In this document: positions 400 to 23,434 of the stretch, piece by piece
Layout: each line of letters begins with the position of its first letter
Position numbering within the stretch: position 1 is the first letter of the stretch
From: Candidatus Gemmiger excrementavium
GTDB taxonomy: Bacteria > Bacillota > Clostridia > Oscillospirales > Ruminococcaceae
Assembly (NCBI GenBank): GCA_019116485.1
Contig: DXBO01000009.1
Location: forward strand, 1-37,616
Direction: 5' to 3'
Length of the DNA stretch: 37,616 nt
Program-made: the position numbers and the translations under genes
The notes under the pieces: model-generated
What the model was told of the DNA's origin: nothing
Database searches by the model: none
Seen by the model: only the letters and a program-made list of their open reading frames with translations

Positions 400-1017
400 A
401 TGTCGAATCGGATCAATTACCAGCGCGAAATGGAACAGGTGCTGCAGCAGCTGGCGGCGCAGGGGCAGCGCCCGCGGCTTCTGCTCCATGCCTGCTGTGC
501 GCCTTGTTCCAGCGCCACGCTGGAACGGCTGGCGGAACATTTTGAACTGACGATCTTGTATTATAACCCCAACATTGACCCGCCGGCGGAATATCACCGC
601 CGCGAGGCCGAACTGGAGCGATTTGTGGAAGAGGCCGGGTATCGGTTCCCGGTGGTGGAACTGCCCTATGAACCCAGGGAATTTTACGATGCTGTGAAAG
701 GCCTGGAACAGGAGCCGGAAAAGGGGGCGCGCTGCACCATATGTTATCGCCTTCGTCTGGAACAAACGGCCCGGTACGCGGCAGAACATGGGTTTGACTG
801 GTTCTGTACCACCCTGTCTATCTCACCCCTGAAGGACCCGGTACGCATCAATGACCTGGGGGCGCAACTGGGGGCGCAGTACGGCGTGCGCTTTTTGCCC
901 AGTGAATTCCGCAAAAAGGATGGCTACAAGCGCAGCCTGCAGCTCAGCGCCGAGTATGGGCTCTACCGGCAGGAATACTGCGGCTGTGTGTTCAGCAGGC
1001 GGCAGCGGGGGCTTTGA
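400..1017 (+). CDS. queH: Epoxyqueuosine reductase QueH
   Basis: QueH (DUF208) reduces epoxyqueuosine to queuosine in tRNA, the last step of Q synthesis, replacing the cobalamin-dependent QueG. The 205-residue product shows the family's cysteine pattern: CCAPC near residues 32-36, RCTICY near 111-116 and YCGC near 193-196, which bind the iron-sulfur cluster and a second metal. I start at ATG 400 rather than the track's 349 because AGGGGGA lies just upstream and the first conserved block follows directly; the extra 17 codons look non-coding. It is followed at 54 bases by a dehydrogenase gene with no obvious link. The window also holds queT under a preQ1 riboswitch, so the cell both imports precursor and finishes Q. 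Confidence 0.93.
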   Translation: MSNRINYQREMEQVLQQLAAQGQRPRLLLHACCAPCSSATLERLAEHFELTILYYNPNIDPPAEYHRREAELERFVEEAGYRFPVVELPYEPREFYDAVKGLEQEPEKGARCTICYRLRLEQTARYAAEHGFDWFCTTLSISPLKDPVRINDLGAQLGAQYGVRFLPSEFRKKDGYKRSLQLSAEYGLYRQEYCGCVFSRRQRGL

Positions 1018-20736: not shown

Positions 20737-21654
20737 TTAGAATTTATTTACGGGTTTCGGGTGGGCGGGCAGGCTCAGCAAAACCAGCATCACAAAGATG
20801 CAGCCAAAGCCCAAAGCATCCCACAGGGTAAAGGGGGAACCCAGCACCAGCGTGCTGATAATGGCGGCGGTGACCGGTTCGGCAAAGCTGTACAGGCTGG
20901 CCCGCTGGGGGCCGATGAGCGGCACGCCGGACATATACAGGCTGAACGCCAGCACGTTGCCCACGATGACCACTACCGCGATGCCCAGCACCCCCACCGG
21001 GCCGGGCAGATAGCCCATCTCCCAGGGGCGGAACACCAGGTGGAACAACGCCCCGCCCATCAGGAACGCCCAGCCCTGCAGCATGGGGGTAGGGTACTGC
21101 TTTTGCAGGTTTTTGGGCCACATGGTGTAGATCATCACCGCCACGGCAGACAAAAGCCCTGTACCCAGCGCCGCCGGGCTGATGACCAGGCTGGTGAAAC
21201 TGCCGTGGGTGGTCAAAAGAAAGACCCCCACCAGCGCCAGCAGGATAGAGAGCAGTTCAAACACCCGGGGGCTGCGGCGCTGCTGCAGGCAGACCGCCAG
21301 CAGAATCAACACAGGGGAAACGTCCTGCAAGATGGTGGCGATCCCTGCCGAGGACAGCTGGATGGTCAGGAAATAGAGGAACTGGCAGCAGCTCACGCCG
21401 GCCAGGCCGTAGATCAGCAGGTCCAGGGCGTTGCGGGGATTTTTCTTTACGTTCCAGGGGTCGAACAGCAGACGGCGATCCCTGGCACAATAGAAGCCGC
21501 ACAGCAGCAGCCCTGCCAGAAGCAGGCGGATGGGCACCAGCCAGGTGGAGTCCATCCCCTCCCGCGTGAAGAGGTACTGCCCCATACAGCCGGATATGCC
21601 CCAGCAGGCCGCGCCGCCCATGGTCAGGCAGGCGCCCTTTACCCGGTCAGACAT
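20737..21654 (-). CDS. EamA/DMT-family transporter
   Basis: A 305-residue protein of the drug/metabolite transporter superfamily with about ten helices and two EamA repeats. The first repeat starts GACLTMGGAACWGISG and contains ATILQDVSPVLILL. The second contains AVAVMIYTMWPKNL, SLYMSGVPLIGPQRASLYSF and AEPVTAAIISTLVLG. The family moves small molecules such as amino acids, sugars or nucleobase-like compounds; the substrate is not evident. The start at 21654 (GGAGGAA upstream) is preferred over the track's 21717, and it overlaps the HAD gene by 8 bases. It is the last gene of the preQ1-III controlled operon, so a role in moving a queuosine precursor is possible but unproven. Confidence 0.85.
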   Translation of the reverse strand: MSDRVKGACLTMGGAACWGISGCMGQYLFTREGMDSTWLVPIRLLLAGLLLCGFYCARDRRLLFDPWNVKKNPRNALDLLIYGLAGVSCCQFLYFLTIQLSSAGIATILQDVSPVLILLAVCLQQRRSPRVFELLSILLALVGVFLLTTHGSFTSLVISPAALGTGLLSAVAVMIYTMWPKNLQKQYPTPMLQGWAFLMGGALFHLVFRPWEMGYLPGPVGVLGIAVVVIVGNVLAFSLYMSGVPLIGPQRASLYSFAEPVTAAIISTLVLGSPFTLWDALGFGCIFVMLVLLSLPAHPKPVNKF

Positions 21655-22309
21655 GGCAATTTCCTCCTTCCAGTATATACGCGGCGGCTTCCCGCAGGTT
21701 ACGCACCACCGGCGCACCTGTGGTGCGCAGTGCCTCAGGGGACTGGTGACCGCTGCTTTGCAGTACGCAGCCTACGCCCAGGGCCCGGGCCACCTCAAAA
21801 TCATGGGTGGAATCCCCGATCATCACGGTACGGGCCGGGTCCACACCGCCCTCCTGTAAAAAGCGCAGTCCCAGGTCCACTTTGCTCTTGGCGTAAATGT
21901 CGCCCAGGCCCAGCAGCCGGTCAAAGCAAGGGGCCACGCCCCGCTCGGCCACCTGGCGCTCCAGCGTGGTCACGGGGCTGGCCGACAAAATCACCTGGCG
22001 CAGCCCGGCGGCGGCAAAGGCGTCCAGGGCATCCCGGGCGCCGTCGGCCAGGGGACAGGCGACACTGGCGGGGATATAATCTTCCATATAGCTTTGGGCC
22101 AGGTCGGCAAAGGGATGGCGGGCAAAGTCAAAACCCGCCCGCTGGTAGTATTCCTCTACAGGAAAGCCAAAAATCGCCCGGTACTGATCGCGGTCGTACC
22201 GCTGCGGATAACCGTACCGCGCCAGCAGACGGTTGAGCGCGTCCACGCACAGTTGTACATCATCCAGCAGGGTGCCGTTCCAATCCCACAAAATCAGTTC
22301 CGGGCGCAT
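21647..22309 (-). CDS. HAD family hydrolase, phosphoglycolate-phosphatase-like
   Basis: A 220-residue HAD phosphatase with motif I LWDWNGTLLDD, motif II ILSASP, a conserved lysine in YAKSKVDLG and motif IV MIGDSTHDFEVA. A helical cap lies between motifs I and II (about 20-80), the layout of phosphoglycolate/beta-phosphoglucomutase-type enzymes. The WDWNGTLLDD form is common in this subgroup. The start is ATG 22309 with AGAGGT upstream; the track start 22354 lies within queT. It begins 10 bases after the queT stop and overlaps the EamA gene by 8 bases, so all three form one operon. It may act on a phosphorylated precursor linked to queuosine salvage; that is inference from position. Confidence 0.85.
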   Translation of the reverse strand: MRPELILWDWNGTLLDDVQLCVDALNRLLARYGYPQRYDRDQYRAIFGFPVEEYYQRAGFDFARHPFADLAQSYMEDYIPASVACPLADGARDALDAFAAAGLRQVILSASPVTTLERQVAERGVAPCFDRLLGLGDIYAKSKVDLGLRFLQEGGVDPARTVMIGDSTHDFEVARALGVGCVLQSSGHQSPEALRTTGAPVVRNLREAAAYILEGGNCHV

Positions 22310-22319
22310 AGAATACCTC

Positions 22320-22922
22320 TTATTTTTCCACGAAGATGCCGTTGAGTCCCGCATTGGACTCGATGAGTTTTACCAGGGCCACGCCCAGCACGGTGCAGCT
22401 GACCAGTTCCCCGACACCCACCGAAATGCCGTTGCTCAGGCAGAGCAGCCAGAGCGGGGCGCTCATGACATGGTAATCAGTGAAGAAAAGGGTGATCTCG
22501 ATGCCGATGATAACGGCATTGAAGAACACCGGCGGCAGGGACGCCGGGATCGCCAGGCCCTTAAGGCGCAGATGGCGCAGGCGGTAGGTGACCAGGCAGG
22601 CCAGCAAAGTGGCGATGGTGCCGAAGATCACGTCGATGATGGTGGAGCCGAACAGGTTTGCCAGAAAGCAGCCCAGTGTGACGCCGATGATATATTCGGC
22701 GCCAAAAACGGGCAGCAGGCAGAGGGCCTCGGCCACACGGACCTGGACGGCGCCGTAGCTGAAAGGCGCCAGCACCAGGCACAGCACCACATACACGGCG
22801 GCGATGACGGCGCAGCGCACCAGGCGACGCACCGAGGCATGGCTGTCGTTGCGGGGCAGAGCCAGCCGCACAGCGACACAGGCCGCCAGTACGGCGGCCA
22901 CGGAAGCGATAAACAGATACAT
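22320..22922 (-). CDS. queT: Queuosine precursor transporter QueT
   Basis: QueT (formerly DUF988) is the membrane S-component-like protein linked to uptake of preQ1 or related 7-deazaguanines. The 200-residue protein has about six helices and the family blocks FSYGAVQVRVAEALCLLP, EYIIGVTLGCFLANLFGS and a C-terminal VGELVSCTVLG. The track starts at 22976, but its first 18 codons lie inside the riboswitch. The true start is ATG 22922, seven bases after CCGGAG, the ribosome site that the riboswitch controls. No ECF ATPase genes are in the window. The downstream HAD and EamA genes are co-transcribed. Confidence 0.94.
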   Translation of the reverse strand: MYLFIASVAAVLAACVAVRLALPRNDSHASVRRLVRCAVIAAVYVVLCLVLAPFSYGAVQVRVAEALCLLPVFGAEYIIGVTLGCFLANLFGSTIIDVIFGTIATLLACLVTYRLRHLRLKGLAIPASLPPVFFNAVIIGIEITLFFTDYHVMSAPLWLLCLSNGISVGVGELVSCTVLGVALVKLIESNAGLNGIFVEK

Positions 22923-22927
22923 ACAGA

Positions 22928-23026
22928 CACTCCGGCGGATAGATTTTGACCGCATGCCAGACCGCCAGCCTGGCACCGGTTTGCGCCGCGCAAAGCACGG
23001 CGGAGCCTAAAATCCTAAGTTGCTCA
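22928..23026 (-). promoter_or_regulatory. preQ1-III riboswitch
   Basis: On the minus strand the leader reads TGAGCAACTTAGGATTTTAG then GCTCC, a variable GC hairpin, CAAACC, GGCTGGCGGTC, TGCGGTCAAAAT and ATCCGCCGGAG. This matches, block by block, the preQ1-III aptamer I remember from Faecalibacterium prausnitzii. Its last segment contains the ribosome site of queT (CCGGAG), which can pair with TGCGG/GGCGG upstream, and no terminator follows. Control is therefore at translation: ligand should hide the ribosome site and lower uptake. Confidence 0.95.
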
Positions 23027-23036
23027 ACAAAAAATC

Positions 23037-23065
23037 ATTATAGCAAAGCGGCGCAGCGCTTGCAA
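23037..23065 (-). promoter_or_regulatory. Promoter of the queT operon
   Basis: On the minus strand TTGCAA (23060-23065), a 17-base spacer and a perfect TATAAT (23037-23042) lie just upstream of the riboswitch. Confidence 0.8.
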
Positions 23066-23106
23066 GGGGGCCGGGCGGGAATTTTGGCGCAAAAGCGCAA
23101 ACGGTC

Positions 23107-23135
23107 TTGACTTTCCCAGGCAAACAGTTTATAAT
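23107..23135 (+). promoter_or_regulatory. tRNA-Leu promoter
   Basis: TTGACT (23107-23112), a 17-base spacer and TATAAT (23130-23135), 14 bases before the tRNA; it is divergent from the queT promoter. Confidence 0.88.
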
Positions 23136-23148
23136 TCAAGAGTTACAA

Positions 23149-23232
23149 GCCGGTGTGTTGGAATTGGCAGACGAGACGGACTCAAAATCCGTTGGTGGTG
23201 ACACCGTGTGGGTTCGACCCCCACCACCGGCA
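23149..23232 (+). tRNA. tRNA-Leu (anticodon CAA)
   Basis: The acceptor arms GCCGGTG and CACCGGC pair, followed by the unpaired A73. The anticodon loop CTCAAAA on a GGA/TCC-ended stem gives anticodon CAA, which reads UUG. A long variable arm (TGGTGGTGACACCG) marks a class II tRNA, and the T-arm is GTGGG-TTCGACC-CCCAC. CCA is not encoded. The ORFs drawn across it are spurious. Confidence 0.97.
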
Positions 23233-23235
23233 TAC

Positions 23236-23274
23236 AAAAAGCCCCCGGGAACTTAGGTTCCCGGGGGCTTTTCG
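23236..23274 (+). terminator. Terminator after tRNA-Leu
   Basis: AAAAAGCCCCCGGGAAC and GTTCCCGGGGGCTTTT form a very stable stem with a TTAG loop and a T-tract, four bases after the tRNA. Confidence 0.95.
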
Positions 23275-23320
23275 TATAGCCGTGGTGAGGGGGCGAACAG
23301 GGCGGCGCGCCGCAGCGCGC

Positions 23321-23347
23321 AACCAACAGTCCGGTGGACTGTTGGTT
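23321..23347. repeat. Perfect 12-bp hairpin
   Basis: AACCAACAGTCC and GGACTGTTGGTT pair around GGT. There is no T-tract, so it is not a standard terminator; it looks like an intergenic repeat motif. Confidence 0.7.
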
Positions 23348-23434
23348 AGCCAGCGGGAGACCCCATCGGCGGCGAAAGGTACGCGATGATAAGGTGCGGG
23401 GACGAGGCGCGCCGCAGCCCTGGGCCGTTGGGGT

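Follow-up and report, generated by a model that had tools for sequence, protein, structure and literature searches.

Background

The preQ1-III class of riboswitches binds preQ1, and in a single cellular test the element of Subdoligranulum variabile gave about 2.6-fold repression in a reporter with an EC50 of 22.5 nM (PMC11625349). The pseudoknot helix P2 is known from the published structure, and in this class the docking helix P5 buries the two leading Shine-Dalgarno bases (PMC11625349). This helix was seen in the preQ1-III crystal only as an intermolecular contact and showed no preQ1-dependent modulation in probing, and its docking is supported by smFRET (PMC11625349, a 2024 review). P5 is thus a helix that is predicted but unseen in its biological form and unmodulated (PMC11625349), and this makes the mechanism of preQ1-III the least settled among the preQ1 switches.

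The preQ1-I class (RF00522) is like the element described here in sensing preQ1 and in often standing before queT, but it is a much smaller H-type pseudoknot. The preQ1-II class (RF01054) shares the HLout pseudoknot, the translational control and the queT target, and differs in burying the whole Shine-Dalgarno beside the ligand. Studied members of the preQ1-III family RF02680 include the Faecalibacterium prausnitzii element of structure 4RZD and the Subdoligranulum variabile element of the reporter.

Here we analyzed a stretch of 37,616 nucleotides of Candidatus Gemmiger excrementavium (the window), in which the element before queT is, by its sequence, a genuine member of this already known class. 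It is best read as a class III riboswitch in the Gemmiger queT leader that would place preQ1 import under translational negative feedback, with a probability of roughly 0.93. The computations made here establish the family to which the element belongs, the identity of the gene and its start codon, the lack of a terminator, the content of the pathway and the covariation of P1, P4 and P5.

Identification of the preQ1-III element

The RF02680 (PreQ1-III) model was matched by cmscan with Rfam 15 at 22930-23025 on the minus strand over its full length (model positions 1-102 of 102), scoring 87.4 bits where the gathering threshold is 63, with an E-value of 3.3e-16 in the whole 37.6-kb window, or 2.7e-18 when a 301-base stretch around the element was scanned alone. 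No Rfam family besides RF02680 was found in this 301-base stretch at E<=1, and neither preQ1-I nor preQ1-II gave a model match at the queT-leader locus at E<=1. A covariance model of our own, built from 46 relatives with the window sequence among them, gave one meaningful match in the window, which was the same element at 103.5 bits, the runner-up having an E-value of 4.8. A first-pass annotation made from the sequence had named this class and strand and proposed the Infernal search with the Rfam preQ1-III model as a check; the full-length match over the threshold bears out both, and the two sequence blocks that it quoted were found on the minus strand. Its span of 22928-23026 was right in place and differs at the ends by 1-2 bases from the model match.

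The block GAGCAACTTAGGATTTTAGG corresponds to the minus strand at 23025-23006, while TGCGGTCAAAAT lies in the 3' half of the element on the same strand and is followed by CCGCCGGAG, which ends at 22930. Membership of the class is indicated by the model score, the P1/P2 pseudoknot core with the conserved C7, U8 and A6/A18 all present, the complementarity of P5 and the position in the queT leader; C7 and U8 are unchanged across the 46 relatives. The element is like the RF02680 members in its full-length match, C7/U8, AUUUU/AAAAU core, P5, downstream queT and bacterial family, and unlike them in its species and in the stem sequences and lengths of P3 and P4. In P5 the window has CCGCCGG against the Rfam consensus CCGCuGG, so that a G-C pair replaces G-U.

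Architecture of the leader

A site resembling a promoter (TTGCAA-17-TATAAT, 10/12 matches, the -10 being preceded by TG) is found at 23037..23065 on the minus strand, and two such sites were found near the element against 0.2 expected in shuffles. This TG-extended sigma-70-like promoter ends 11 nt upstream of the aptamer, a position that puts the RNA start just before it. The riboswitch that follows (22930..23025, minus strand) comprises the aptamer and the expression platform. Helix P1 (23003..23025, minus strand) is formed by GAGC at 23025-23022 and GCTC at 23006-23003 and encloses the pocket junction and the 5' strand of P2, with C7 and U8 of the published numbering at 23019 and 23018; it is 100% paired in 45 distinct relatives, and one of its pairs has 8 compensatory changes. 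The pseudoknot helix P2 (22943..23013, minus strand) joins ATTTT at 23013-23009 with AAAAT at 22947-22943 and is paired in 99.6% of cells, and it is nearly invariant in the relatives, so covariation is uninformative for it.

Two hairpins were placed by the Rfam alignment on the minus strand: P3 (22984..23002), formed by CGCCGUGC and GCGCGGCG, and P4 (22950..22979), whose loop carries the anti-Shine-Dalgarno CUGGCGG and whose stem shows compensatory changes at 7/9 counted pairs in the alignment of relatives. The docking helix P5 (22932..22968, minus strand) would form between CUGGCGG at 22968-22962 and CCGCCGG at 22938-22932, and the queT Shine-Dalgarno GGAG stands at 22930..22933 on the minus strand, 7 nt before the ATG and in the same layout in the relatives. 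A plain non-pseudoknotted minimum free energy fold of the leader was no better than shuffles (z -0.73), which is expected because the fold is a pseudoknot and which still lends it no support. Pairing of GGAG with the P1 3' strand GCUCC was considered and rejected, as relatives with P1 GGGC/GCCC (e.g. L005) keep GGAG and lose this pairing.

A search for a hairpin with a T run found no terminator-like site in 22800-23400, as the first-pass annotation had stated. This result bears on transcriptional control, in which the preQ1-bound form would favour an intrinsic terminator as in the class I switch of B. subtilis; such control is known from another preQ1 class (PMC11625349), but with no such site in this interval and a gap of only 7 nt between the element and the ATG it is very improbable here.

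Covariation of helix P5 and burial of the Shine-Dalgarno

In the alignment of the 46 relatives, P5 is paired in 98.4% of cells, and 4/7 of its pairs show compensatory changes on both sides (13 such cells against 1.8 in shuffles), a covariation score that was reached by none of 500 shuffles. The shuffles keep species relatedness in, but identical compensations are seen again in genera apart from one another. When the partner is shifted by 1-3 columns, pairing falls to 32-75%, and RNAalifold, unprompted, chooses P1 and P5 on this alignment. The variants found in relatives include CUGGCAG/CUGCCGG, CUCGCGG/CCGCGGG and UGACGA/UCGUCG. Since the crystal did not show P5 in its biological form and probing found it unmodulated, this covariation provides independent support for the helix, and it is a more useful yield than one added member of a small riboswitch class.

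The pairs of P5 that reach into GGAG are C-G and U-G, by which the first two Shine-Dalgarno bases (GG) are covered and AG is left free, so the Shine-Dalgarno would be hidden partly and not wholly. The earlier proposal that the element hides the ribosome site is thus supported by the P5 covariation in relatives and falls short for the site as a whole.

Start codon and surroundings of queT

The downstream gene (22320..22922, minus strand, ATG start) encodes the 200-aa S component of a preQ1 ECF transporter, with a Pfam QueT score of 144.6 bits over a cut-off of 33.7, and the target gene is queT as proposed. The mechanical open reading frame begins at GTG 22976, inside the aptamer. In 70/71 readable relatives the queT ATG stands 6-11 nt past the element (22 at 6, 17 at 7, 7 at 8, 22 at 9 and 2 at 11 nt), and in 32/71 an in-frame upstream start is missing. 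These distances differ modulo 3 and these 32 relatives have no upstream in-frame start, which identifies ATG 22922 as the queT start, and the first-pass preference for it over the automatic 22976 is upheld. The frame is open upstream in the window species, as would be expected if queT began at GTG 22976 or ATG 22955 and the region were conserved because it is translated; this is hardly credible, as a spacing of 6, 7, 8, 9 or 11 nt keeps no frame, the upstream start is so often missing, and what is conserved is base pairs and not codons.

A HAD-family hydrolase gene (21647..22309, minus strand, Pfam HAD_2 70.9 bits) lies directly downstream of queT, with its start inferred at 22309, and is probably in the same operon. 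Such a hydrolase (motif WDWNGT) follows queT in 64/72 preQ1-III loci (L001-L072) and in 0/25 loci of this family where queT has a different leader; it may have a role in preQ1/queuosine salvage, and species relatedness could also explain the pattern. On the other side, a tRNA-Leu gene lies across the gap from the element in the opposite direction, and after it a GC-rich inverted repeat (AAGCCCCCGGGAACCTAAGTTCCCGGGGGCTTTTT) at 23240-23280 is probably a bidirectional terminator.

Queuosine pathway of the host and proposed mechanism

The window encodes an epoxyqueuosine reductase, queH (478..1002, plus strand, PF02677 234.5 bits), and the host genome encodes TGT and QueA (contig C31). Neither QueF nor a QueD-like PTPS was found in the host genome (94% completeness), and QueC gave only two partial matches there (the first 60 of 210 positions) in longer open reading frames, as expected from other PP-loop enzymes. 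The Gemmiger host is therefore predicted from its gene content to be a preQ1 salvager, apparently unable to make preQ1, which agrees with the general lack of Q synthesis genes in gut Ruminococcaceae (PMC11130926).

Transcription would start at the promoter just upstream of the aptamer, and the leader would fold into the P1/P2 pseudoknot and bind preQ1. With preQ1 bound, the P4 loop (CUGGCGG) would dock more readily onto CCGCCGG, beside and overlapping the Shine-Dalgarno, to form P5, by which ribosome access and queT translation would be lowered; the downstream HAD gene would probably be affected too. Imported preQ1 would be used via TGT, QueA and QueH, and since the host seems to lack preQ1 synthesis of its own and to depend on this supply, negative feedback on import is proposed. 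Ligand binding, the direction of regulation and the docking dynamics are carried over by analogy from the Faecalibacterium and Subdoligranulum elements. Translational control, also claimed by the first-pass annotation, stands as the best reading given the lack of a terminator, with the hiding of the ribosome site inferred and partial.

Distribution of the element

The preQ1-III element is present in 34/35 Gemmiger genomes. Family-wide, 46/398 genomes have a match, in 13/126 genera, and 34 exceed the cut-off; in the sample of the order, 7/394 genomes have a match, all of them within the family of the window. The description of the class as rare therefore suits bacteria at large, as the order sample indicates, and does not suit Gemmiger. 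QueT over the Pfam cut-off was found in 142/199 genomes and is far commoner than preQ1-III, so the majority of queT genes in the family must have leaders of another kind.

Viral contigs gave no match to the 19-mer. One locus in a Nitrospinota MAG (L109) was rejected as a chance match, as it matches the 19-mer only and has no P1 closure, P4 or Shine-Dalgarno; about 2 matches of this sort are expected in 257 Gb.

Divergent relatives

Matches to RF02680 below the cut-off were found in 12 genomes of the family, all before queT. Position 6 is U in L059 and L062 and position 18 is G in L063 and L069, while C7 and U8 are kept; positions 6 and 18 form the reported A-A ceiling pair (PMC11625349). In other genera of the family, L066 (1981-2110, minus strand), L067, L171, L184, L068 and possibly L172 have the pocket junction J1-2 enlarged by an additional hairpin between CUU and (A)UUUU. 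These inserted hairpins are of unrelated sequence and each is foldable, 1-27 of 500 shuffles folding equally well, and the leaders that carry them are missed by the Rfam model or fall under its cut-off. Our own model matches L184 (28.1 bits, E 2.4e-5) and L171 (27.7 bits, E 2.9e-5), weakly matches L170 (15.4 bits, E 0.045), and also picks up L064, L065, L066 and L068.

In L170 and L068, P5 is kept by compensatory change though its partner no longer touches the Shine-Dalgarno. There is about an even chance that the preQ1-III structural family is wider than the Rfam model and that the docking of P5 itself, beyond Shine-Dalgarno burial, is the selected regulatory event; the divergent relatives are leads towards this reading. 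These two leaders, together with the inclusion of only two Shine-Dalgarno bases in the window P5, speak for docking that acts mainly as a roadblock near the start and not by direct burial of the Shine-Dalgarno. This is rather unlikely, as almost every other relative has P5 immediately next to the Shine-Dalgarno and overlapping it, and L170 is a weak model match; P5 docking that limits ribosome access at the Shine-Dalgarno remains the preferred reading.

Other queT leaders

By eye, many further genera of the family have class I-like leaders in front of queT. Many leaders among L147-L273 (e.g. L226, L239 and L245) carry a strongly conserved class I-like GUCAGUCGCAAGUUCCUGACUUUAAACCACACUACGAAAGGA, and in the tested examples none of the Rfam preQ1 models matched, even with the limit relaxed to E<=10.

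Six leaders (L229, L233, L249, L253, L258 and L265) share a motif about 100 nt before the ATG and have no Rfam match. In this motif a hairpin loop CCGUGCC (or CCGCGCC) can pair with UUGCACGGAGAAA (or AUGCGCGGAGAAA) at the Shine-Dalgarno, with an optional hairpin between them. The topology resembles preQ1-II, and the motif may represent a preQ1 switch that is either divergent or new. The leaders of L224, L242 and L256, also without an Rfam match, have GUUUGGAGGCACCCAUG at the start and a hairpin with the loop UGGUGGCAGC, and two of them have a downstream stretch like (G)CUGCCAUAAA(A/U)UUCAC. An order-wide pattern search for another leader motif gave few inexact matches, and the reversed-pattern control matched too.

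The leaders of L185 and L198 have a preQ1-III-like 3' half (P4 loop GCGGC/GCGGU and UAAAAU..GCCGC) joined to an unalignable 5' half, and each contains a CAGGGC..TTTCCCTCG stretch twice.
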